Below are positions 361 through 21,137 of a stretch of DNA of 29,632 nt, in pieces (position 1 is the stretch's first letter; each line of letters begins with the position of its first letter). Source of the DNA: a virus. The notes beneath the pieces were generated by a model. That model was not told the DNA's origin. It saw nothing but the letters and a program-made list of their open reading frames with translations, and did not search any database. Made by a program: the position numbers and the translations under genes. The stretch is taken from positions 1 through 29,632 of the IMG/VR virus record IMGVR_UViG_3300024182_000017; one strand, given 5' to 3'.

Positions 361-2544
361 TTAAAGTCCAATTACGTGAACATAATACGTGTAAGAATTT
401 CCGGCGACCGGAGTTCCGTTCATGGTTATGGTCAGGGTTGTCGCTGTCGCTGCCCAGGTGTGAGGCGGCGTGTTGAATGGACTGATAATGTCATTTCGCA
501 GCACAACCACAATGGGATTATTTGTCCATGTTCCATCTTTCCATGTGATCGTAATTGTCGGGTTCGCTAATTGGCCTGTGCCGGAAGAATTGACGATGAA
601 CGCAAAGGCTTGGTCAGTTCCCGTAGCGGCAGACTTTGTGGCTGTCGTTCCCCATCCAGCCGAGAGCACAATCGCCGCATCAGCCCCCGAATAAGCAGTG
701 CCAATGTTGGCCTTGATTCTGCGCAATCGTGCATCACCCACAGAGCCATCAATCTGTGCTTTCAGTGTTACACCAGCATCACTAAACCATCTGCCTAAAA
801 GTCCATTCCTTACTTGGAATCCGTCTGTACCGCGCAGAATAAGCGGCCCTTGCGACAGGAACACATTGCTGCTTGCATCAACATTTATTGGCGTAGCGGA
901 AGTTGAGAAATCTCCACCTGCTGCTGTATTCATATCCAGACTAAACGCAGCCCCAGAGCTTCCGATTCTCCACAACCCTCCTGCGGTTATGGATTGTGCC
1001 AAATCTCTCAACAGGAAAGTCGGGCCACCACTTTTCTGCACACGCGGCGCGCTATTGGTCGCGTCAATCAGCAGAGGAGTAGCTGAAGGCGTTTGGATTA
1101 TGCCGTCGTCGTTCAATAGGCGGAATAGGTTTGTCTCGTTCCCGCTGAAGCTGTAGGGAGTGGCACAGTTGAACTGTTTATTGTTTGCAAGAATTAAGTT
1201 GTCGAGGCCAGCAGCGGGGCATGTGACCTTGTAGCCGGTCGGCGCGTTGTAGGCGATGTTCCCTGTCACGGAACTGTTCTGATTGATGGTATTGTCGCCC
1301 GCCTGATTCCAGATTAGATAGCAAATCTGAGTCGCATTGTTCGTGCCAAAAACCACGTTCCCGCTGATATTGATACCGAAGCCAGAACGGTTGCTGATTC
1401 CCGTTGTCCCGTTTACCGCTGGCATCAGAACCGTATTGTTGACGATTGATACGTCCTGACACGATGTTGAGCACTCGATGGACGTGTCATGACATCCGAC
1501 GATGATATTCCCCTTAATAGTGAGGCGGGCTGTGCCATAAGCCGCTCCAACCTTTGAACCGATACAGAATATTCCATCGGCCAAAAGGGAATTGGCACAG
1601 TAATTATCTGTAACTTCTATATCATTCACTAGTGCGTTAAGTGGGCCATTGCCGAGCAGAATACAGCTACCGATGGCGATTGTGTCAATAATGTTCCCGT
1701 GAATACGACCCTTGGCGCAACCGTCATCACACCACACCCCATGATCGTAAGAATTGAGAAATTCACACCCGCTAATCTCAAACTTCGTGACGCCTTTGAA
1801 ATAAGCCGTGCGCCCCACCCCGGAGACAATACTCGCTGCGTTTACAGTCAAATCTCGAATGATAATGCTTGAGTTGGTAGCCCCAGCGTTTTTGAAAACA
1901 TCAAAATTCGTTCCTGTAGTGGTAAGCGTCGTAATTCCGCGCCCTGCGCCACGAAGCGTAATATTTGATGGGATTGAGATGGAAGCAGAAATAGTGTAAT
2001 TACCAGGCGGGATATAGACTTCTCCACCCGTTGCCGTTGCTGCCGTAATCGCCGCCGCAATGGTGGTATTAGCTACTCCATCGACAACGAAAATATTGTC
2101 AACGTTGCCAGAAATTAATTTCCCTGCGGCGAGAGTGAGATTGCCAGTCGTTATTGTTTGATTGCCTGAAGGATTCAGCAGCACTGCGCCAGCAACCGAT
2201 GGGCCTCCTAATGAGGCAGGAATCATTGTGCTTAAGTCAGCCGATGCCCCTGCAATCGACCAATAGCCGAAGTCCTGAATCAGCGTACAGCCGTTTGAGC
2301 CATAAAGCTGCGCCCGGTAAACGGTTCCGCTTGGACTCAGTTCATCGTTGAACCAGATGGCCGTTGTGGTGATTTTCCCATTCGCATCCAATGGGAAGTA
2401 CAGTGGGGCAGTCGTTATCTGTCCGCCCGTGGCTGTGACCTCGGCATTCTGCGAAAGGGTTAGAGACAGCAACCCCAGAGCGACAACATTGCCCTTGGCA
2501 TCCTGAAATCCCTGACTGGTGCTAATAAGTTTTGCGGGAGGCAG
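361..2544 (-). CDS. tail spike with right-handed beta-helix (pectate-lyase-like), probable CTG start
   Basis: Receptor-binding or depolymerising tail spike. Residues about 25-85 form an N-terminal beta-rich attachment region. Then comes NTTIAAAITAATATGGEVYI, typical of pectate-lyase-3 type spikes, followed by many short repeats of the GNII/GNVV type over several hundred residues, as in a right-handed beta helix. The last roughly 100 residues (WGTTATKSAATGTDQ to the end) match the beta-sandwich tail common on phage spikes. The only standard start is TTG at 2470-2472, but the frame stays open upstream and encodes a conserved-looking stretch, ISTSQGFQDAKGNVVALG, directly before it. No ATG, GTG or other TTG precedes that stretch; a CTG at 2542-2544 has AGGA seven bases upstream, so I place the start there (727 aa). 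If the TTG is used the protein has 703 aa. No catalytic residues can be assigned by eye. Confidence 0.85.
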   Translation of the reverse strand: MPPAKLISTSQGFQDAKGNVVALGLLSLTLSQNAEVTATGGQITTAPLYFPLDANGKITTTAIWFNDELSPSGTVYRAQLYGSNGCTLIQDFGYWSIAGASADLSTMIPASLGGPSVAGAVLLNPSGNQTITTGNLTLAAGKLISGNVDNIFVVDGVANTTIAAAITAATATGGEVYIPPGNYTISASISIPSNITLRGAGRGITTLTTTGTNFDVFKNAGATNSSIIIRDLTVNAASIVSGVGRTAYFKGVTKFEISGCEFLNSYDHGVWCDDGCAKGRIHGNIIDTIAIGSCILLGNGPLNALVNDIEVTDNYCANSLLADGIFCIGSKVGAAYGTARLTIKGNIIVGCHDTSIECSTSCQDVSIVNNTVLMPAVNGTTGISNRSGFGINISGNVVFGTNNATQICYLIWNQAGDNTINQNSSVTGNIAYNAPTGYKVTCPAAGLDNLILANNKQFNCATPYSFSGNETNLFRLLNDDGIIQTPSATPLLIDATNSAPRVQKSGGPTFLLRDLAQSITAGGLWRIGSSGAAFSLDMNTAAGGDFSTSATPINVDASSNVFLSQGPLILRGTDGFQVRNGLLGRWFSDAGVTLKAQIDGSVGDARLRRIKANIGTAYSGADAAIVLSAGWGTTATKSAATGTDQAFAFIVNSSGTGQLANPTITITWKDGTWTNNPIVVVLRNDIISPFNTPPHTWAATATTLTITMNGTPVAGNSYTYYVHVIGL

Positions 2545-5190: not shown

Positions 5191-6156
5191 TTAAACGAGC
5201 GATGAATCCGCAGTCACAATGCGGAAACGTGGTGTGGTCGTATCCAGGGTCTTCGCCACGGTTGCAAACCAGTAAGAAACATACTGGCCGATATTGCCTT
5301 CTGGGTCAGCCGGTGATGGGCCACCTTTGATGATGTTGACCTGCATCTGCTCATTGCGCGGGTCAACAATCTTTGATGGGCCTCTGCCGGTCAGGTCGAT
5401 CATCCCCACTCCGCCGTCGCCAGCAATGTAAGTGCTGTAAAGAACTGAAGGGGCAGTACCGGAAGTGTTGACGTTCGTGGTTTCGAGGAACCTTACGCCA
5501 GCAATCTTGCCGATTTCCCCGTACATTGGCGAGTTCACCAGACGGGTGTTATCGGTGTATTTCAGGACATCAATGAATCCACCAGCCGTGTTGTCAGAGG
5601 TCAGATCATAGGAAACAAACGGATGGATGATTCCTACAAAGTCCCCTCCGGCACGCGGGCGGATGTCTCTGCCGGTGAGCTGAGCACGGTTAGCGCGGGC
5701 ATCGGCTGCTGAGAACGCAGTCCCAATAGTGGCAAAGAGTTGGCCGGTATTGGAATCGAATTCATTGCGGTACAGCGTGTCTACAGTCTTTGCGGCACGG
5801 TAGGAGACGTCATCAACCATGCGCTCGGTGGTGGCAGCAATGTCGGTAAGGATCAGCAGTTCGGATGAGCTGGTGAAATCTGAGAACTGCTCGACGGTTG
5901 CCGAAACCGTTGTGCTGGCCTGATTGAACGGTGTGCCAACAGTTTCCGCCGAAGGCGTAGTATTAGCGCCCGGCAGAGTAAAGCGGTACATCTGGGTTGT
6001 TTTGCCTGAACCCTGCGGGATGACGCGAGGTTCGCAGATCGAGGCAAAGCGAAACATCTGCTCAAGCCGATCGAGCTTTACTCGGTCGTAATAGACTGTG
6101 GCCTGATGAGTTAGGCCTGCTGATTGAGTGGTATTCGCCGGTGGGGCGTAAGACAT
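5191..6156 (-). CDS. major capsid protein, N4-gp56 family
   Basis: Builds the icosahedral head (HK97 fold). The 321-residue length and the layout match N4-gp56-type coat proteins: LTHQATVYYDRVKLDRLEQM near the start, then VIPQGSGKTTQMYRFTLPG, a long central helix region with TTERMVDDVSYRAAKTVDTL, and a C-terminal YVSYWFATVAKTLDT. It begins with a strong AGGAG site eight bases before the ATG. The protein upstream in the operon is a scaffold-like protein, as expected for a head gene. A 192-base gap with its own promoter-like signals separates it from the scaffold gene, so capsid mRNA may be boosted independently. Confidence 0.9.
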   Translation of the reverse strand: MSYAPPANTTQSAGLTHQATVYYDRVKLDRLEQMFRFASICEPRVIPQGSGKTTQMYRFTLPGANTTPSAETVGTPFNQASTTVSATVEQFSDFTSSSELLILTDIAATTERMVDDVSYRAAKTVDTLYRNEFDSNTGQLFATIGTAFSAADARANRAQLTGRDIRPRAGGDFVGIIHPFVSYDLTSDNTAGGFIDVLKYTDNTRLVNSPMYGEIGKIAGVRFLETTNVNTSGTAPSVLYSTYIAGDGGVGMIDLTGRGPSKIVDPRNEQMQVNIIKGGPSPADPEGNIGQYVSYWFATVAKTLDTTTPRFRIVTADSSLV

Positions 6157-6289
6157 AGATTTCTCCTATGAGTCGGGAATGATGTTCAATTCGCCGTCAC
6201 AGAAGGAACTCTTCTGAAACTGCCTGCAACCCGCAACGAGGAACACTCGCGCCAGATTGGACGCTTGTTAGATTTTTATAGCTGCCGGG

Positions 6290-6308
6290 ATGAAAGGAAC
6301 GCTTTCAT
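6290..6308 (-). repeat. 7-bp stem hairpin in the capsid leader
   Basis: Seven-base perfect arms (ATGAAAG / CTTTCAT) with a 5-base loop lie in the untranslated stretch between scaffold and capsid genes. It is not followed by a T-run in the direction of transcription, so it is not a normal terminator. It would sit near the 5' end of any mRNA made from the promoter proposed at 6323-6352 and could stabilise or process the capsid message. Confidence 0.4.
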
Positions 6309-6322
6309 AGGTAGCTAAACCG

Positions 6323-6352
6323 ATTCTGCTACTAAACTTTGTCCAAAGTCAA
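6323..6352 (-). promoter_or_regulatory. possible promoter for the major capsid gene
   Basis: On the minus strand there is a TTGACT -35 box (6347-6352), an 18-base spacer and CAGAAT (6323-6328) as -10. A palindrome ACTTTG-TC-CAAAGT (6336-6349) covers the -35 and the start of the spacer, in the place of an operator. The signal overlaps the scaffold stop codon, and transcription would run into a 165-base leader ahead of the coat gene. The spacer is one base longer than ideal. Confidence 0.35.
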
Positions 6353-7197
6353 TAAATATAATTCCTCTGCCTTGCAAGGTCGATTCTCCGCTGGATTTCA
6401 TCTTTCGTCATGTTCACGTCCACCTTCAGATCATCGGGCACCGTGCTCAAGTCTACCGGGCCTGTGCTCGGTATCGGAGGCGGAGGAATCGGAGTTATCG
6501 GCGCTGCTTGTGCCGCTGGCTTTGCCTCATATACCTTGGTTTGTAGGGCAAAGGCATGAGCGGCCCTGAGAGCGTTTAGCTGTTGCCCAGTATCGCCGGA
6601 AAGCATCAAGGGGGTTAGGCCCAAAGTTTCCACGGTATTCAACAGTTTTTCTGAGTTCTCTGGCGTAGCGTTGAATTCCGGCGCAGCAGCGGAGAACATC
6701 ACGGAAAGGTTCTGCCCTGCAAATTGTTCCGTATTCTGCTGGATTCTTCCCAATGCCGCCTTGTATTCGTCAACCGTCTGGAAGCCAAGCTCTTTTGCCT
6801 GAAGTTCAGTAACGTACTTGGCAATGCGGCCTTCTTCCTCATTGGCGAAAACCTGCGGTGCAGGAGGAGTTGGAGGCGCAGGCGGTTGTTTCGCTTTCTC
6901 AATCTCCGTCTTTGCCCAGAGCTTTGTGTTTACATGCGCTCCGCCAATCTTGGGCAGAATTTCCGCTGCGGTTCCCGTGAACGTCTCGCCTGTAAGATAT
7001 TTGACTTCAAACTTGCCGTCGCCAAGGTCTTTGGTAACAACCGGATTCTCTGGCGTTGGCTCTGCTGCAACCGGAATTGCGGGAGTAGGAGCGGCAGGTG
7101 TAGGGACTGCCGCCGCAATCTGCTCTTTTGGCATGTTGACGGTTACTTGCTCTGCCGGAACTGCGGGACTTGCTGGTACTGTTGGCGCTGTGCTCAT
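6349..7197 (-). CDS. putative head scaffolding protein, 282 aa
   Basis: Guides capsid assembly. The N-terminal 50 residues are Pro/Ala/Val-rich and disordered. A small beta domain follows (GDGKFEVKYLTGETFTG), then Pro-rich linkers and a long helical, Glu/Gln-rich centre (AKYVTELQAKELGFQTVDEY). The C-terminus is basic and helical (MTKDEIQRRIDLARQRNYIY), as in scaffolds that dock on coat protein through a short basic helix. It is encoded between portal and major capsid genes, the usual scaffold position. The start overlaps the upstream stop (ATGA). Confidence 0.75.
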   Translation of the reverse strand: MSTAPTVPASPAVPAEQVTVNMPKEQIAAAVPTPAAPTPAIPVAAEPTPENPVVTKDLGDGKFEVKYLTGETFTGTAAEILPKIGGAHVNTKLWAKTEIEKAKQPPAPPTPPAPQVFANEEEGRIAKYVTELQAKELGFQTVDEYKAALGRIQQNTEQFAGQNLSVMFSAAAPEFNATPENSEKLLNTVETLGLTPLMLSGDTGQQLNALRAAHAFALQTKVYEAKPAAQAAPITPIPPPPIPSTGPVDLSTVPDDLKVDVNMTKDEIQRRIDLARQRNYIY

Positions 7198-7487
7198 TGT
7201 GCCTCGCTTGAAAGTGTTTCAAAATCTCTTTTGAACTGCTCTAATTCTTCTTCGTGCGCCTTGATTGTGTCTTCAGCCTGAATCATCATGGCGCGATACA
7301 TCGCTTCTCTCTGCTGCCACCTGAGTTGCAAGCGCATGTACGTCATCGGGTCGCTCGATACATTGCCTACCATATCCTCAAAAGCCGCCTGTACCTGTTC
7401 CTGCATGAATACGGTCAGTTCCTTGAAAGTCTCTGACTGGTAGACTTGGGCCTTTTCTGAAAGTGGTATTTCAGGCGTTGCGCTCAT
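7194..7487 (-). CDS. small helical head protein, 97 aa
   Basis: Almost entirely helical and acidic, with a probable coiled coil in the last 50 residues (MYRAMMIQAEDTIKAHEEEL). It is encoded between portal and scaffold with ATGA overlaps on both sides. Small helical proteins here are typical of podovirus-like head genes and may help portal or scaffold assembly. No named family was recognised. Confidence 0.7.
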   Translation of the reverse strand: MSATPEIPLSEKAQVYQSETFKELTVFMQEQVQAAFEDMVGNVSSDPMTYMRLQLRWQQREAMYRAMMIQAEDTIKAHEEELEQFKRDFETLSSEAQ

Positions 7488-12451: not shown

Positions 12452-12974
12452 AAATAACCTCTAGGCCGTGGCTGCCGGGGCGAAGTTCGTGCTTCAAGCC
12501 ATGCTTATTGCAAAATTCATCAATGGCCTGCCTCACGCCGGGAAATGATGGCGTATCGGAATCGTGGCAGAGAGTCAATCCGCCAAGATTCATCTGCACA
12601 TAGGCATGTTTTAAATCTTCCATAACTGCCTCGTAACTATGATCGCCATCAATAAAGGCAAGATCAAAGCTCACCACATAAGGCCATGAGTTCTCACCCC
12701 ATATGCAGCAAAATGTCCATTGCGGATGCCCATACCAGACATATCGGCAGCTTGGGTGAACGTCTACGCTCCACAAATGGCCGCCGTTTTCTTCAAGGCC
12801 TGCCAATAGTGCAGTAGTAGAAATTCCACAGTGAACGCCTATTTCCAGCACGTTGCCTTTGGCATGTTCTTTAAGAAATGGCAGATGAGCATGGGTATCT
12901 AGCTTTTCATCCTGCTCAACTAGCGAATACATCTCCTGCGCCCGACTGTATATCGGCATTCCCGGCTGCGCCAC
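12444..12974 (-). CDS. class I SAM-dependent methyltransferase (Methyltransf_24 type)
   Basis: Transfers a methyl group from S-adenosylmethionine, substrate unknown. The SAM-binding loop is VLEIGVHCGISTTALLAG at about residues 42-59, and the acidic strand is HLWSVDVHP. The family signature FDLAFIDGDHSYEAVMEDL follows, then LGGLTLCHDS. Members are often found with sugar or natural-product genes. The GTG start shares a base with the radical SAM stop (TAGTG), and the end overlaps the glycosyltransferase-like gene, so the three enzymes form one coupled unit. Confidence 0.82.
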   Translation of the reverse strand: MAQPGMPIYSRAQEMYSLVEQDEKLDTHAHLPFLKEHAKGNVLEIGVHCGISTTALLAGLEENGGHLWSVDVHPSCRYVWYGHPQWTFCCIWGENSWPYVVSFDLAFIDGDHSYEAVMEDLKHAYVQMNLGGLTLCHDSDTPSFPGVRQAIDEFCNKHGLKHELRPGSHGLEVIYV

Positions 12975-14038
12975 TAGACAAACGCCTCATGCATCTGCGG
13001 AGCCGGATCGAGCACATAGGCCAGAGCAGAGTTCTGCTTTCTAAACTGGCACCGCTCACACCCTCTGCCGTCAAAATTGATCTGGTTATCAAAGCGCTCC
13101 TGACTCATCCAGAAGTCCTTGAAGCGTTGATCCTTGATGCTGCCAACCAATCCTCGACTGTTGTATGCATACCCACAGCAGCGGTACACGTTGAGGTCAG
13201 CCCCGATATAGGTTGTGAAGAATTGATACCCGCAGAGAGAGTCTTCTGGCGAACCCATTCTGAGGTCTTCAAGACGATCTCCAAATCGGTTATATACCGT
13301 GAATCCTTCATTGCTTAATCCTTCTGCCTCGGCACACAGCTTCGCGCACTCAGCATGAAAGCCTTCAAACATCGTTTCGTCTTCATTCGAGAACTGGGCT
13401 GAAATCCTGAAATTGTCAGCGCCAAGATATTTTGCGAGTGCAGCTGCCTTGGCTACTTCCTGCCAATTATGTGGCGTTACAACAAAACCAACGCCAATAA
13501 CACAGTCGGTTTTTGCCTCATCACGCGCATTGCGGAGATACCTGACGGCGTCCATAGCCTTCTGCCAGTGACTTCTGTGCACCCGACGAACAGAACAGTA
13601 CGTTTCCTCTGAAGCCGCATCCAGACTGACACGAACCCAAGATGCCCGCACAATTAACCTTGCCAGCGCTGGAGTGATCTGCACGCCATTCGATACCAGG
13701 GAAAACTTCATGCCATGCTGCCAAACCCTCTCAACTACCTGCTGAAACCCCTTATGCAGCGTCGGCTCCCCGCCACCTGTAAACTGGATCGCCTGCACCC
13801 CAATTTCCGCACAGTCATCCACAATCTCTAACGCCTTCTCCGTCGCCATCATGCGCTTATCATCAAATAACTGATTCGGCGCATACCCTTCCAGTCTATA
13901 AGCACAGAATTTACAGCTCTGCTGGCACAGGTCCGCCAAAATCAACTCAACATGCGGCAACCTTCCCGGCACCCCATTGCTGATTGAATGCAGCACGTCA
14001 GGGTGTCTAAAGGCCTTCAGGTGGCTGTAGGCGTTCAC
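12974..14038 (-). CDS. radical SAM enzyme with SPASM-like C-terminal cysteines
   Basis: The cluster-binding motif CxxxCxxC is present as C38, C42, C45 (DLCQQSCKFCAYRLE), followed by the SAM-contact motif TGGGEP at 87-92 and SLVSNGVQIT. In the last third, Cys residues occur in SLCGYQFF, VYRCCGYAYN and GCERCQFRK, like the twitch or SPASM region that binds extra iron-sulfur clusters. Such enzymes modify peptides, sugars or cofactors. At 354 aa the length is normal. The GTG start shares a base with the upstream stop. It sits in the late packaging operon, unusual for a metabolic enzyme, and with its two neighbours may modify a virion protein, a glycan or a nucleotide. The substrate cannot be read from the sequence. 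Confidence 0.87.
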   Translation of the reverse strand: MNAYSHLKAFRHPDVLHSISNGVPGRLPHVELILADLCQQSCKFCAYRLEGYAPNQLFDDKRMMATEKALEIVDDCAEIGVQAIQFTGGGEPTLHKGFQQVVERVWQHGMKFSLVSNGVQITPALARLIVRASWVRVSLDAASEETYCSVRRVHRSHWQKAMDAVRYLRNARDEAKTDCVIGVGFVVTPHNWQEVAKAAALAKYLGADNFRISAQFSNEDETMFEGFHAECAKLCAEAEGLSNEGFTVYNRFGDRLEDLRMGSPEDSLCGYQFFTTYIGADLNVYRCCGYAYNSRGLVGSIKDQRFKDFWMSQERFDNQINFDGRGCERCQFRKQNSALAYVLDPAPQMHEAFV

Positions 14039-16791: not shown

Positions 16792-17037
16792 TCAGACTCT
16801 CCGCCCCATGAGGTGAAGGATTTGGGCGCGGAGTTCAACCAACTTCGCCTTGTCATCTTCCGTAGACCACTCGTTACCAGCCAGCCAAACCGCTGATTCG
16901 TAACGAGCCAGCAACTCCCCATGCCCCTGAACGGATGGGATGACCGCTTTGAACTTACATTCCGTTACGCAACCGCAGTCTGGGCCTTCTTTGGCGCACT
17001 TAACCAGATGATTATTTACTTGACGAAGGTAAGCCAT
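16792..17037 (-). CDS. hypothetical protein with Cys cluster, 81 aa
   Basis: Begins MAYLRQVNNHLVKCAKEGPD; the segment CAKEGPDCGCVTECKFKAV has four cysteines that may bind a metal. The C-terminal half is helical (LAGNEWSTEDDKAKLVELRA). It has a clear ATG and ends 4 bases before the next start. No named family. Confidence 0.6.
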   Translation of the reverse strand: MAYLRQVNNHLVKCAKEGPDCGCVTECKFKAVIPSVQGHGELLARYESAVWLAGNEWSTEDDKAKLVELRAQILHLMGRRV

Positions 17038-17070
17038 TCTGCTATCCTTTGTTCATGGTAGAGCTAAACA

Positions 17071-17217
17071 TCACGGTTTCTTCGGTTTACGTGGTTCCGG
17101 CAATGCGTTTCTCTCCCGCAACTTCTGCAAAAGCTCATTTCTCAGCCCTGCGGCCAGTTTTCGCGCAGACGTTCTCTGCAATGGACTCTTTGCTTTCTTT
17201 GGAGGCGTTTTAGCCAT
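17071..17217 (-). CDS. small basic protein, 48 aa, head-to-head with the transposase
   Basis: MAKTPPKKAKSPLQRTSARK, then helix LAAGLRNELLQKLRERNA and a PEPRKPKKP end: Lys/Pro-rich, likely nucleic-acid binding. Its ATG and the transposase ATG share one CATG palindrome (17215-17218), so the ribosome binding site of each gene (GGGAG here, GGAGG for the transposase) lies inside the coding part of the other. The gene is therefore either a genuine phage gene with a fortuitous new leader, or a chance frame inside the insertion sequence end. Confidence 0.45.
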   Translation of the reverse strand: MAKTPPKKAKSPLQRTSARKLAAGLRNELLQKLRERNALPEPRKPKKP

Positions 17218-18118
17218 GACACTCCCTGAGGTTAATTCTCTCTATTCGACAGACGAACGGTGCCGCGAGTTGCTGAATAAATTGCGCTGGCCCTTGGGTG
17301 TTGAATGCTTGCGCTGTAAGAGCAAGAAAGTTTACGACCTTCCGACACAAAAGAAGTTTGAATGCGGCGAATGCGGTTATCAGTTTTCCGTTCTGACTCA
17401 AACGATTTTCAATGACACACATCTTCCGCTGGAAACATGGTTCATGGCCGTTCTGCTTCTCGTAGAAGCGCGCAAGGGCATGAGCGCGAATCAGATTAAG
17501 CGCACTCTTGGAATCAGCTACAAGACAGCGTGGTATCTCTGTCACCGTATCCGCAAGGCCATGGCATCCGCTGAAAAGCCGATGTTGGACGGAACGGTAG
17601 AAATTGACGAAACCTATGTTGGCGGAAAGTTTCGCGGTGGCTACAGTGGACGCGCAAAAAACAACAAAGAAATCGTGCTTGGAGTCCGGCAACGTGGCGG
17701 CGATCTCCGTTTCTTCCATGCGGAAGATGTGAAGTCCGGCACGCTGGCAAAATTCATTCAAGAGCACGTATCGACTGATGTTGAAGTCCTGATGACCGAT
17801 GACTTCGGAGCATACCCCAATGCGATGAAACGCGCTGGACACGATGCGGCCAAACACAAGACCATCAATCACTCCAAAAAGGTTTACGCAGAAGGGGACA
17901 TCTACACAAACACGGTTGAATCCGCATTCTCGCTGCTCAAGCGCGGCATCATGGGAACATGGCACAAGATCAGCGCGAAACACCTTGCGGCATACCTTGA
18001 GGAAATGACCTTCCGGTTTAACCGCCGTAAGAATCCGGATATTTTTGTCGATACGTTGCGCCATATGATTACCGCTGACCCTTTGACCTTCGAAAAATTG
18101 ACAGAAGATGTCGCCTAA
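17216..18118 (+). mobile_element. IS1595 family (ISXO2-type) transposase, full length
   Basis: The 300-residue protein has an N-terminal zinc ribbon (C31, C34, C50, C53), a helix-turn-helix-like stretch ANQIKRTLGISYKTAWYLCH, and a DDE-type catalytic core: D131 in VEIDETYVGGK, D195/D196 in LMTDDFGAY, and the N-x-V-E motif NTVESAFSLLKRGIMG at 232 onward. No frameshift or stop breaks it, so it may be active. It stands out as a long plus-strand gene in a minus-strand operon. Its start is shared with the 48-aa gene and its stop overlaps the 127-aa gene by 4 bases, so no untranslated space is left for terminal inverted repeats; I found none by eye. Confidence 0.92.
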
Positions 18119-18498
18119 AAGCCAACGAAGAAAAGGTCTTCAAGGGCCATCTTACGAACTTGCCAAGAAGAACGCTCTTCTCCTTTAACTTTGAATATGC
18201 ACTCTCCGTCATCATTGAGCGTAACCGTAGCTGCAAAGATGAGAATGTCATCTTTCTTGACAACAATCTGACCACCATCCAAAAAGAAGGCAACAGCGGA
18301 ACTAATGCGATTACCTTGTCTCAACACTGTGAAACTGCCGCTCGAAGGGACAAACTTAAATCCGTAATAGCGATCTTCCGGGCGTAGATCATTACGAATT
18401 AAAACGTCACTCTCAATTTCAAGTTTCAACTTTTCAAACATCTGCATTGCTGAACATTCAGCTCGCACTGCAACCCAATTAATATTCCTGTTTTCCAT
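18115..18498 (-). CDS. unknown protein, 127 aa, convergent with the transposase
   Basis: Starts MENRNINWVAVRAECSAMQM with a good GGGAG site five bases before the ATG. It looks like a small beta-rich domain (YYGFKFVPSSGSFTVLRQGN, SAVAFFLDGGQIVVKKDDIL, ATVTLNDDGECIFKVKGEE). No family was recognised. Its TAG stop overlaps the transposase TAA by 4 bases on the other strand, and 19 bases upstream lies the remnant of another transposase end. It may be a passenger gene of the insertion sequence or the phage gene it landed against. Confidence 0.7.
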   Translation of the reverse strand: MENRNINWVAVRAECSAMQMFEKLKLEIESDVLIRNDLRPEDRYYGFKFVPSSGSFTVLRQGNRISSAVAFFLDGGQIVVKKDDILIFAATVTLNDDGECIFKVKGEERSSWQVRKMALEDLFFVGF

Positions 18499-18517
18499 TA
18501 CCGCTCCCTCTCTCTAT

Positions 18518-18562
18518 ATGATTACTGCCGATCCGCTGACGTTTGAGAATCTGACGGCTTAG
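18518..18562 (+). pseudogene. C-terminal remnant of a second IS1595-type transposase
   Basis: The plus strand encodes MITADPLTFENLTA then a stop. The intact transposase ends in MITADPLTFEKLTEDVA: 12 of the first 13 residues are the same, but many third codon positions differ, so this is the tail of a diverged relative and not a recent copy. Similarity begins at the TATATGATTAC junction near 18515; nothing before it matches. The remnant lies antisense to the last codons of the Ntn hydrolase gene. Confidence 0.75.
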
Positions 18563-19532
18563 GCTGATCCTTTTTGGCTTCAGCAGCTTTTTTGTCGTCA
18601 TTATCTTTTCTTACTCGCGCAGTAAATTTCGCGGTTTCCCTTTGCGCTCGGGCGATGCCACGTTCGGTGACTTTGCGATTCTTTTGGTAGATGTCATCGA
18701 TGTCTGCAATATGGTGCGGTTCGATCATGTACGATACCCCAACCCCAGCTCCTATAACGATCATGTCTGTGGCCTTGCCCACTCCAGGTGCTACTTCTGC
18801 CCGTTTTTTCGCAGCATAGGTCAAAATCAATGTGTCATCGAATGATCTTTTGGGGTTATGGCCGTAGAACATTAATTGTGACTCCGCATGAGCTTTGCCA
18901 TATCCGATTGCAGCGAAGCCAACGCTACTCAAATATGACAATTTATCTCTTTCTGTCGTGTAAAGCTGGGTGTAGATTTGTTCCTCACCAGTGGGACCAA
19001 GAGGGCCATCATGATCAATCCCAATGAATATTGCTTCTTCTATGGAAGGGAGTTCGTATTCAATAAGTTGATTGGCAATCTTCTCCACTTGCTCGGGGTG
19101 CATAGAAGATTGTTGACCCAAAAATGATTGCAAGGTTAGGCCAAGCGGATACAGTATCGCGGCTTCGGCTTTATCTCTCCGCAACTCTCGGTATTTCTTG
19201 CAATAGAGTGAAGCTACATCCTTAACCCTCATCCACTTTTTAGTATCTGCCAAAATCCATGTCTGCGTTTCTTTGTTAACTTCTTTCAGAATTTCGGCCT
19301 GTGTCGCCATGTCCCCGGCTACAAGAGCAAAAATCGAAGGCGAGAACCGCCACAGCTTTGCGGTCTCGGGCTCAAATTCCACATCTCCAGCGGTCAACAT
19401 ACGATCAGATGCGCCAATAATGAATGAATAGTCTGCTATTGCGGCTACACATACAGTCACGGCTTTCCTGCTTTCTTGCCGTTTTGGTTTACGATGTTTA
19501 CGAGACGGCTTGACGCTCAGGCTACCCCTCAT
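18522..19532 (-). CDS. proteasome-like Ntn hydrolase, 336 aa
   Basis: After a basic 25-residue leader comes VTVCVAAIADYSFIIGASDR, then ETAKLWRFSPSIFALVAGDM: the layout of a proteasome beta-type subunit, with T26 as candidate N-terminal nucleophile, D43 and K59 spaced close to the usual Asp17 and Lys33, and the AGD-x-ATQ block. Maturation would need removal of the leader. The middle has helices and PSIEEAIFIGIDHDGPLG; the C-terminus is highly charged (NDDKKAAEAKKDQPKPSDSQ). The last 12 or so codons lie over the transposase remnant, so the natural C-terminus was probably replaced. The start overlaps the upstream stop as ATGA, tying it to the phage operon. Substrate unknown: it might process a phage or host protein or act as an acylase. 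Confidence 0.75.
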   Translation of the reverse strand: MRGSLSVKPSRKHRKPKRQESRKAVTVCVAAIADYSFIIGASDRMLTAGDVEFEPETAKLWRFSPSIFALVAGDMATQAEILKEVNKETQTWILADTKKWMRVKDVASLYCKKYRELRRDKAEAAILYPLGLTLQSFLGQQSSMHPEQVEKIANQLIEYELPSIEEAIFIGIDHDGPLGPTGEEQIYTQLYTTERDKLSYLSSVGFAAIGYGKAHAESQLMFYGHNPKRSFDDTLILTYAAKKRAEVAPGVGKATDMIVIGAGVGVSYMIEPHHIADIDDIYQKNRKVTERGIARAQRETAKFTARVRKDNDDKKAAEAKKDQPKPSDSQTSADRQ

Positions 19533-19690
19533 AGGGCACCTTCGTCAAGTATATAATCCTGCTTAACCAAATACCCCTCTGGTTCGGCGGCGGGTTCGTA
19601 GGTGTGACCGCCAAACTCTTCCCGTGTTCCGTGGTGTACACGGTTCGATTCCTCCGCGCCACACCGGCAAACCTTTCTCTCATCGCTCAT
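19529..19690 (-). CDS. small protein with CRCG motif, 53 aa
   Basis: MSDERKVCRCGAEESNRVHH and an acidic tail ending YILDEGAL. GGAGG lies five bases before the ATG at 19688-19690. The stop overlaps the Ntn hydrolase start as ATGA, so the two are coupled. CxC plus His residues might bind a metal. It has no recognised family. Confidence 0.6.
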   Translation of the reverse strand: MSDERKVCRCGAEESNRVHHGTREEFGGHTYEPAAEPEGYLVKQDYILDEGAL

Positions 19691-19704
19691 CGCGGCCTCC
19701 GTGT

Positions 19705-19878
19705 TCACAACGGCTCTCCCGGCTCCGTCCCTTCGGCTGGAGAGGGCGCGAGTCTGCGGAGGAGTTCGGCGCGGTAATTTTCAATAACTTGTAAATCTGC
19801 ACCTGGATAATCGTCACAAATAGACGACTCAAATCTCGATACCAGTTCGGCCCCCGTCATCTTCTTCACGTCGCTCAT
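19705..19878 (-). CDS. small hypothetical protein, 57 aa
   Basis: Starts MSDVKKMTGAELVSRFESSI at an ATG (19876-19878) overlapping the upstream stop as ATGA. It is helical (ADLQVIENYRAELLRRLA) with a Pro/Glu-rich tail. The layout resembles small phage accessory proteins; function unknown. Confidence 0.65.
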   Translation of the reverse strand: MSDVKKMTGAELVSRFESSICDDYPGADLQVIENYRAELLRRLAPSPAEGTEPGEPL

Positions 19879-20132: not shown

Positions 20133-20326
20133 GCTTTCTCCTTCCCTTCCGAGGGGCGGGCCCCCCACTCACGTAATTTCCTCCGGCGCATTTGCACGGT
20201 GTTAATTAGCAGATCACGGTAGGCGCGAATGCCATGGTCGCAATCCTTGCTGCCCCCTGCCGAAAGCATCAGCTTTGCCGCACGGCGAATAACGGTGATG
20301 TTTAGTTCTGGGCGAATGTATCTCAC
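20129..20326 (-). CDS. small basic hypothetical protein, 65 aa
   Basis: MRYIRPELNITVIRRAAKLM then a helix with AYRDLLINTVQMRRRKLREW. Basic and helical throughout, with ATGA overlaps on both sides. The pattern is that of small phage accessory proteins; no family can be named. Confidence 0.6.
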   Translation of the reverse strand: MRYIRPELNITVIRRAAKLMLSAGGSKDCDHGIRAYRDLLINTVQMRRRKLREWGARPSEGKEKA

Positions 20327-20778
20327 TCGACTTTCTCCTTTGTGGCCTGCTCGATTTCAAACCTGATTTTTACCTGCAACGGCGCTTTGTCGATTCGCGG
20401 CCTGTCCTTTCGATCCCACGTTCCGCCGCCGCACAATCCAACGCATCTCCATCCTGCTGCCGTGAGACTAGTTCCCGGTTCGCTGCTCAGAATGTAAGTA
20501 ACCAGCTTCCGATAGCCCATCGCCCTCGCAGCTCGCCAGCTTGCCGCATACAGCATTGAGCAGGCATTCTTGGTTCCGTCCGTTGCCAGCCTGACTACTT
20601 CAGCAGTCCATCCGTCATCCAACCGTCGCGCTACTGGCCTGCCCACAATCGAAACGCCTATGACCTTCTGCCCATTTGAGAGCGCAATGGCGAATTTGCC
20701 GCCTTGCGGAGCACGATGATGCCGATGAATCTGGCGTACAAACTCACGGGCATCACGCAATGAGATGGGGCAGAGCAT
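20323..20778 (-). CDS. XF1762 family protein (GNAT-like)
   Basis: Matches the XF1762 family seen in phages and mobile elements: REFVRQIHRHHRAPQGGKFA near the start, IGVSIVGRPVARRLDDGWTA in the middle, then TDGTKNACSMLYAASWRAAR and LSSEPGTSLTAAGWRCVG. The last blocks resemble the acetyl-CoA site of GNAT acetyltransferases, so an acyltransferase role is probable, but the substrate is unknown. I start at the ATG 20776-20778, whose T overlaps the previous stop (TGATG); a GTG one codon earlier is possible. Confidence 0.85.
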   Translation of the reverse strand: MLCPISLRDAREFVRQIHRHHRAPQGGKFAIALSNGQKVIGVSIVGRPVARRLDDGWTAEVVRLATDGTKNACSMLYAASWRAARAMGYRKLVTYILSSEPGTSLTAAGWRCVGLCGGGTWDRKDRPRIDKAPLQVKIRFEIEQATKEKVE

Positions 20779-21137
20779 CACTTCTTGGTACCCTCCTTGG
20801 CCTGCTGGGACGCTGGGGGAGCGAGGCTTAGTTGCAACATCGCTACACGAACCTTCCGCACAATAAACTCCAAATCGCTCGGCTCATTCAAGGCGAATCC
20901 TTCCCATCCGCTTCCCAAGGCTTTGATTATTTCGCTTGTCTCCGGCGGCACCCATCCCTCGCTCCCTGCTGCCACGGAGCAACAGCCTTGCTCTCGCAGG
21001 TAGCCGGAGATTCGCGGGACAAATGCTTTCGCGTAATTCGTAATGTCCTGCGGGTTGGAGCAATGACCCATTACGATCTTGACGATGCCAAGCTCCCTGA
21101 TTTCCTGGATTTGCTCGCCCGCATTTAGCTCTGCCAT
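20778..21137 (-). CDS. hypothetical protein, 119 aa
   Basis: MAELNAGEQIQEIRELGIVK leads into a mixed alpha/beta domain (VKIVMGHCSNPQDITNYAKA, SGYLREQGCCSVAAGSEGWV, LEFIVRKVRVAMLQLSL). Small and soluble, with no catalytic motif. It overlaps the 71-aa gene by 13 bases and is coupled to the XF1762 gene. Confidence 0.6.
   Translation of the reverse strand: MAELNAGEQIQEIRELGIVKIVMGHCSNPQDITNYAKAFVPRISGYLREQGCCSVAAGSEGWVPPETSEIIKALGSGWEGFALNEPSDLEFIVRKVRVAMLQLSLAPPASQQAKEGTKK

Follow-up and report, generated by a model that had tools for sequence, protein, structure and literature searches.

An IS1595-family transposon within a phage gene carries a proteasome-like hydrolase in a cargo slot apparently exchanged by recombination

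In this work, we describe a single intact IS1595-type transposon of 2,555 bp, located within a phage gene at positions 17007-19561 of a 29,632-nucleotide stretch of viral DNA (IMG/VR record IMGVR_UViG_3300024182_000017, positions 1 to 29,632; hereafter the window). Between its terminal repeats the element encloses a DDE transposase, a gene for a 127-aa protein and a gene for a proteasome-like Ntn hydrolase. We read it, with a probability of roughly 80%, as a complete passenger-carrying transposon of the IS1595 family, consisting of a fixed left part and a cargo slot whose content is exchanged by recombination. The fixed part would comprise the left repeat and transposase promoter, a miniprotein gene in divergent orientation and the transposase itself, while the slot would span the DNA from the transposase 3' end to the right repeat. 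In the clade of the window element the slot would almost always hold a proteasome-like hydrolase with an N-terminal threonine, transcribed from the right end towards the transposase, and elements would replace this content by recombining with one another, the breakpoints falling at or close to the 3' end of the transposase. The first-pass annotation had delimited an island at 18115-19532; its ORFs, coordinates and convergent overlaps at two transposase 3' ends were confirmed by ORF listing and alignment, so the genes were placed correctly, but the true feature is larger.

The whole region is enclosed by a 21-nt inverted repeat, extension of which gave 24-bp ends with 21 of 24 positions matching. 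The left terminal repeat, GATGATTATTTACTTGACGAAGGT, lies at 17007-17030 (plus strand) and is an end of the ACTTGAC type conserved among related elements; the right one, CAGGATTATATACTTGACGAAGGT when read inward, was recovered by the inverted-repeat search at 19538-19561 (minus strand). Duplication analysis revealed a perfect 8-bp target duplication, CTTAACCA, on both sides of the element (16999-17006 and 19562-19569), and thus the proposed check for terminal repeats and a target duplication gave a positive answer for both. The best end pair over 60 Markov resamples matched at 16 of 24 positions, and no further pair of end repeats with an 8-bp duplication was present elsewhere in the window at 16/24 or better.

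Excision of the element together with one CTTAACCA copy fuses two pieces of a phage ORF in frame, namely the 5' part at 19570-19708 and the 3' part at 16792-16998 (both minus strand). The target phage gene was broken by the insertion, the case for the empty site being made from the window alone: the flanks join in frame over one copy of the duplication, whereas the suggested comparison with an empty site in a related phage yielded none, either among the relatives or in a direct search with the joined gene. Of the other phage genes, the radical SAM gene at 12974-14038 (minus strand) has counterparts of 67-77% identity on three other viral contigs; all three (L186-L188) are devoid of the target gene, and in L186 the similarity detected at the DNA level was limited to the radical SAM gene. 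The window also encodes a Mom-like DNA modification protein at 20323-20781 (minus strand; phrog_1384, 1e-35), which is likely an anti-restriction gene of the phage.

Relatives were chosen by their transposase and included 80 bacterial loci, mostly from Acidobacteria, as well as 68 distinct loci on phage contigs, obtained in two scans with overlapping sets of 13 and 67 loci; many of the related loci come from metagenome assemblies. Elements were retained if they had end repeats and exact 8-bp duplications, which gave 92, three of them from near-identical contigs; one doubtful element was dropped. The lineage with the ACTTGAC motif in its ends contains 61 complete elements. Without exception (61/61), their longest cargo ORF is placed opposite the transposase, tail-to-tail, and the stops of cargo and transposase overlap in 28 of the 41 elements with a single cargo gene. 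The convergent geometry is therefore non-random, as had been suspected, and tail-to-tail carriage of cargo is indeed a trait of this transposase group, the pairing recurring in other genomes; no related phage was found that has both genes and no transposase.

The relatives represent many independent insertions with differing duplications, which speaks indirectly for mobility, and no clear orientation bias with respect to the host gene was noticed (13 vs 9). Similar target duplications occur within one sub-clade (ACTGAAGT, ACTAAAGT and ACTTGAGT in L019, L020, L021, L032 and L033), and L036 and L038 both have CCATTTCT; such likeness inside sub-clades hints at a target preference. The alternative suggestion that the transposase repeatedly targets the 3' ends of these genes did not hold, since the cargo is internal to the element and the insertions are found in unrelated host sequences. 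The presence of two transposase 3' ends in the window might also speak for two independent insertions flanking ordinary phage genes. This is extremely improbable, because both genes are situated within one repeat pair and one duplication, the same layout is seen in 61 separate elements, and the second 3' end is only a 45-nt scar with no terminal repeat of its own. Separate transposons flanking phage genes were excluded as a candidate on the same ground, everything being contained in one repeat pair and one duplication.

The class of cargo tracks the transposase tree. Among the 36 members of the window's clade, 35 carry an Ntn hydrolase and one (L034) an SDH/ClpP-like serine protease (6136-7272, minus strand; PF01972), so that no other complete element of the clade lacks an Ntn hydrolase. 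When incomplete loci were included (transposase identity of at least 63%, at least 300 nt downstream), the hydrolase was present in 33 of 37. The sister clade (L006, L011, L012, L014, L015, L055, L056, L058-L060, L072, L076, L079, L081, L086, L090-L093, L099, L100 and L128) carries, for the most part, unrelated proteins whose N-terminal regions have transmembrane segments, in an unchanged slot and orientation. One sister-clade cargo on a phage contig (L010, 5899-6807, minus strand) belongs to the PADLOC candidate defence family PDC-S42 (1e-73). Another phage-borne relative (L003, 2-904; 64%) has its right repeat overlapping the transposase stop and represents a cargo-less form. Plasmid transposases were all less than 60% identical, the best among the matches listed reaching 39%.

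The transposase of the window (17216-18118, plus strand, 300 aa) matched PF12762 (4.1e-33) and the zinc ribbon PF12760 (1.1e-11), and its catalytic residues D131, D195 and E235 are invariant in 13 of 13 sequences. Its likely promoter occupies 17020-17048 (plus strand), with the -35 hexamer TTGACG inside the repeat, a 17-nt spacer and the -10 hexamer TATCCT. Survey of the spacing showed an optimum of 17 nt in both clades, and a -10 hexamer with at least 4/6 identity to TATAAT was found in 24/35 and 17/26 elements, respectively. The -35 of the predicted transposase promoter is supplied by the left repeat; for the right repeat, the same analysis gave no support for a promoter. Between the left repeat and the transposase most relatives have a miniprotein gene of 41-67 aa. 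The one in the window encodes a basic protein of 48 aa on the opposite strand (17071-17217, minus), and its start shares CATG with the transposase ATG. Conservation at the protein level was noted in most elements of both clades, with RVPTRKLLASIKRDLR as the motif of the Ntn clade and MTTDEALKHLFHPKVV as that of the sister clade. Single-change codons in 25 elements comprised 1977 synonymous and 185 nonsynonymous ones, a ratio inflated by the amino-acid-motif selection. The miniprotein is possibly an accessory of transposition.

The Ntn hydrolase is assigned by profile, fold and residues to 18522-19460 (minus strand), i.e. 312 aa from a GTG codon with Thr as the second codon. Its ORF extends to 19532, where an ATG lies only 6 nt from the right terminal repeat on the ORF side. 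The earlier reading coupled the hydrolase start to an upstream phage gene, which turned out to be wrong: the open frame crosses the right repeat, the conserved start is the GTG at 19460, directly followed by Thr, and the ORF upstream represents a broken half of the target gene. The survey of start sites pointed to a possible longer form with an in-frame N-terminal extension (19461-19532, minus strand) beginning at the ATG. An ATG at a distance of 26-50 nt from the right end exists in 26 elements; in 20 of them the first such ATG shares the frame of the conserved start, with no stop in between, and a second form of the hydrolase with a basic, proline-rich extension is likely.

Single-sequence search with the window hydrolase matched no Pfam or NCBIfam family, and PF00227 was detected in 17 of 34 family members, the window protein not being one of them. 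The 34-row family profile, when compared with PDB, matched 20S subunits with E values from 1e-16 to 1e-18, and in 3h4p residue 1 of the beta subunit aligns with profile position 1. The AlphaFold model of the window hydrolase (pLDDT 94.6) has the four-layer fold of beta subunits, and Foldseek returned 20S beta subunits (E 4e-12, TM 0.82 by target). By both profile and model, the label proteasome-like given in the first-pass annotation is correct. Position 1 is Thr in 30 of the 34 hydrolases, Ser in three and Ala in one (L036); D17 and K33 are invariant (34/34 each), and Gly47 occurs in 26/34. The codon preceding residue 1 was ATG in 20, GTG in 11 and TTG in three cases according to the automatic table, in which L026, L048 and L064, whose hydrolases are frameshifted, appear as frameshifted or misaligned at the start; inspection by eye revealed the NTG-Thr start there too. 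Since the start codon directly precedes Thr1, the nucleophile could, given known N-terminal processing, be exposed by simple removal of methionine. We infer that the hydrolase would be active as a Thr protease and would arise with no autocatalytic step.

The second cargo gene, encoding 127 aa, is located at 18115-18498 (minus strand) and shares 4 nt with the transposase stop. Its family is small, being represented in 5 of 121 genomes by the homologue survey. One relative (L217) is also cargo of an IS1595 element: it faces another IS1595 transposase tail-to-tail, and the element is complete, its 22-nt ends being identical; the remaining four have no IS1595 transposase nearby. A viral scan with the 127-aa protein gave no matches, and its structure model, built with no alignment, was poor (pLDDT 48).

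Exchange of cargo is visible in ten close pairs of elements, with DNA identity of 76-87% that starts at the left end and stops 0-49 nt short of where the transposase gene ends. Across the cargo this identity is absent; in 7 of the 10 pairs it returns at the right end. Similarities of transposases and hydrolases are uncorrelated (Mantel rho -0.001, 32 elements), and near-identical transposases are paired with hydrolases of no detectable DNA similarity. The abrupt loss of identity at the cargo together with the lack of correlation indicates that hydrolase modules are exchanged as a whole, at the 3' end of the transposase. The transposase of L028 (3-929, plus strand) is a mosaic, 80-93% window-like in the middle and nearer to the sister clade at its ends, and its cargo (916-1956, minus strand) is a membrane protein. 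Both the mosaic and the loss of homology in close pairs bear out the idea that this transposase group swaps cargo.

The window element itself contains the 3' end of a second, different transposase, encoding YMITADPLTFENLTA followed by the stop, which was found by local alignment at 18515-18562 (plus strand). The local score was 62, compared with at most 32 in the same scan of 13 other elements with a gap at this place, and the stretch was detected also as a 40-bp direct repeat. It matches the end of the L004 transposase (82% over 44 nt), in keeping with the earlier attribution of the remnant to a different transposase. The hydrolase stop is located 40 nt inside it, in a register identical to that of L004, L018, L025, L030, L043 and L045. 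Between the window and L016 the transposases are 88% identical but the hydrolases only about 10%, whereas the window hydrolase is 52-53% identical to those of L004 and L036. Judging by these alignments, the window element is a recombinant and the transposase remnant its scar. An L016-type left part with the 127-aa gene would have been joined to an L004/L036-type right part, which would have carried along about 45 nt of its transposase end. Such a tail was considered as a general mark of exchange and rejected, as it was seen in the window element alone and in no other element. These comparisons establish the anatomy of the element, its recurrence, module exchange and chimerism, and they suggest that exchange probably proceeds by recombination close to where the transposase gene ends.

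Hydrolases of this kind are not confined to the clade. In a hydrolase-first search of 8 genomes, 11 of 14 strong matches adjoin an IS1595 transposase, and in 121 Terriglobia genomes part of the hydrolase matches lay next to IS1595 transposases and a further part next to IS1-type ones. An IS1-type transposase (PF03400) stands beside the hydrolase in L196, L208 and L210, while L208, L214 and L197 are complete IS1-type elements with the hydrolase inside their own end repeats and 8-bp duplications; these five loci present IS1-type transposons carrying proteasome-like hydrolases, some of them tail-to-tail. For many of the hydrolase genes from the 121 genomes, no transposase was recognised in the vicinity, so free genes exist, which could feed the slot. 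Search of phage records with the hydrolase gave no match.

What the hydrolase does for the element or its host may be approached from the same data. It could be a transposition factor that acts on the transposase or on a host factor by processing or degradation, thereby setting copy number, and is required clade-wide. The constant side and orientation of the gene, as well as its presence in 35 of 36 clade elements with another protease in the 36th, would fit such a role. We nevertheless regard it as unlikely, as hydrolase and transposase similarity are uncorrelated to the extent that near-identical transposases accompany hydrolases with no DNA similarity detectable, the hydrolase is present in IS1-type elements too, the sister clade manages with membrane-protein cargo, L003 does without cargo, its right repeat following directly at the transposase stop, and frameshifted hydrolase copies occur. 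The cargo genes lie inside the repeats, and their unrelatedness to transposition is deduced from the missing co-variation with the transposase. Because of this missing co-variation, the other protease in L034, the sharing with IS1-type elements and the other cargo of the sister clade, host-directed cargo rather than transposition machinery is the best supported interpretation, with the hydrolase probably acting on host or competitor proteins. The earlier assignment to a phage accessory slot has to be replaced by transposon cargo. The near-exclusive enzyme class of the clade is odd for free cargo, and the hydrolase could have a function for the element.

As a special case of the cargo interpretation, the hydrolase may serve in defence, competition or addiction, with diversifying specificity leading to constant replacement within the same class. 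Fast turnover of the modules, their occurrence in phage and chromosome alike and the candidate defence protein carried by L010 in the sister clade are in line with it; against it, the PADLOC defence library gave no convincing match to the 34 hydrolases. A defence-like role is therefore our first functional guess, a tentative one with the odds leaning against it. Also short of even odds is the idea of a slot dedicated to proteasome-like Thr proteases, always filled but continually re-stocked with distant homologues through recombination at the transposase 3' end, i.e. an interchangeable arsenal spread by IS1595- and IS1-type elements and phages.

IS1595 elements with passenger genes (tIS) are known, e.g. 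tISCpe8 and MTnSag1 (PMC5704250), and were treated by Siguier, Gagnevin and Chandler (2009, as cited in PMC12888890). The window element resembles them in its IS1595 DDE transposase, terminal inverted repeats of about 24-25 bp, target duplication and additional gene. The known tIS examples carry lincomycin resistance, whereas the window clade has a tail-to-tail proteasome-like hydrolase, an exchanged slot and a divergent miniprotein. The IS1-type elements of Acidobacteria likewise hold hydrolases within terminal repeats and an 8-bp duplication (L208, L214, L197), but differ in their PF03400 transposase, ends of the GGTA.TGG type and variable gene order. In the survey of proteasome homologues by Fuchs, Alva and Lupas (2021; PMC8665760), no informative genomic context was reported, and transposons and Acidobacteria are not mentioned. 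Of the proteins described there, PHI shares with the window hydrolase the beta-subunit fold, Thr1/Asp17/Lys33 and no need for a cleaved propeptide. PHI has a helical insertion after H1/H2 and, in some members, a C-terminal helix; the window model places helices (79-134) between H1/H2 and the core and shows a long helix in its C-terminal part (248-297). PPH and AAH (PMC8665760) are, like the window hydrolase, phage-borne proteasome-like proteins, yet they are phage genes (PPH of about 140 residues or more) and not transposon cargo, and they differ in size and insertions. HslV, a weak background match in the host genomes, has the same fold and catalytic residues but is a housekeeping protein of about 185 aa in these hosts and paired with HslU, while the cargo hydrolases mostly have 230-340 aa and no adjoining ATPase. 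The open-access literature searched contained no description of an association of proteasome, Ntn, Anbu or HslV proteins with transposases, or of IS1595 elements with such cargo in Acidobacteria. Passenger genes in IS1595 are already known, and no account of an exchangeable slot for proteasome homologues turned up in these open-access papers.

Obtained results give the diverse proteasome homologues a strong and recurrent context, as a standing class of cargo in IS1595- and IS1-type transposons of Acidobacteria and their phages. This transposon context offers a testable route to the function of the homologues and a reason for their divergence and spread. The elements also constitute a natural system of cargo exchange in very small transposons, which can be traced by sharp breakpoints. 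If the idea of an interchangeable protease arsenal is true, it would serve defence, competition or control of the host.
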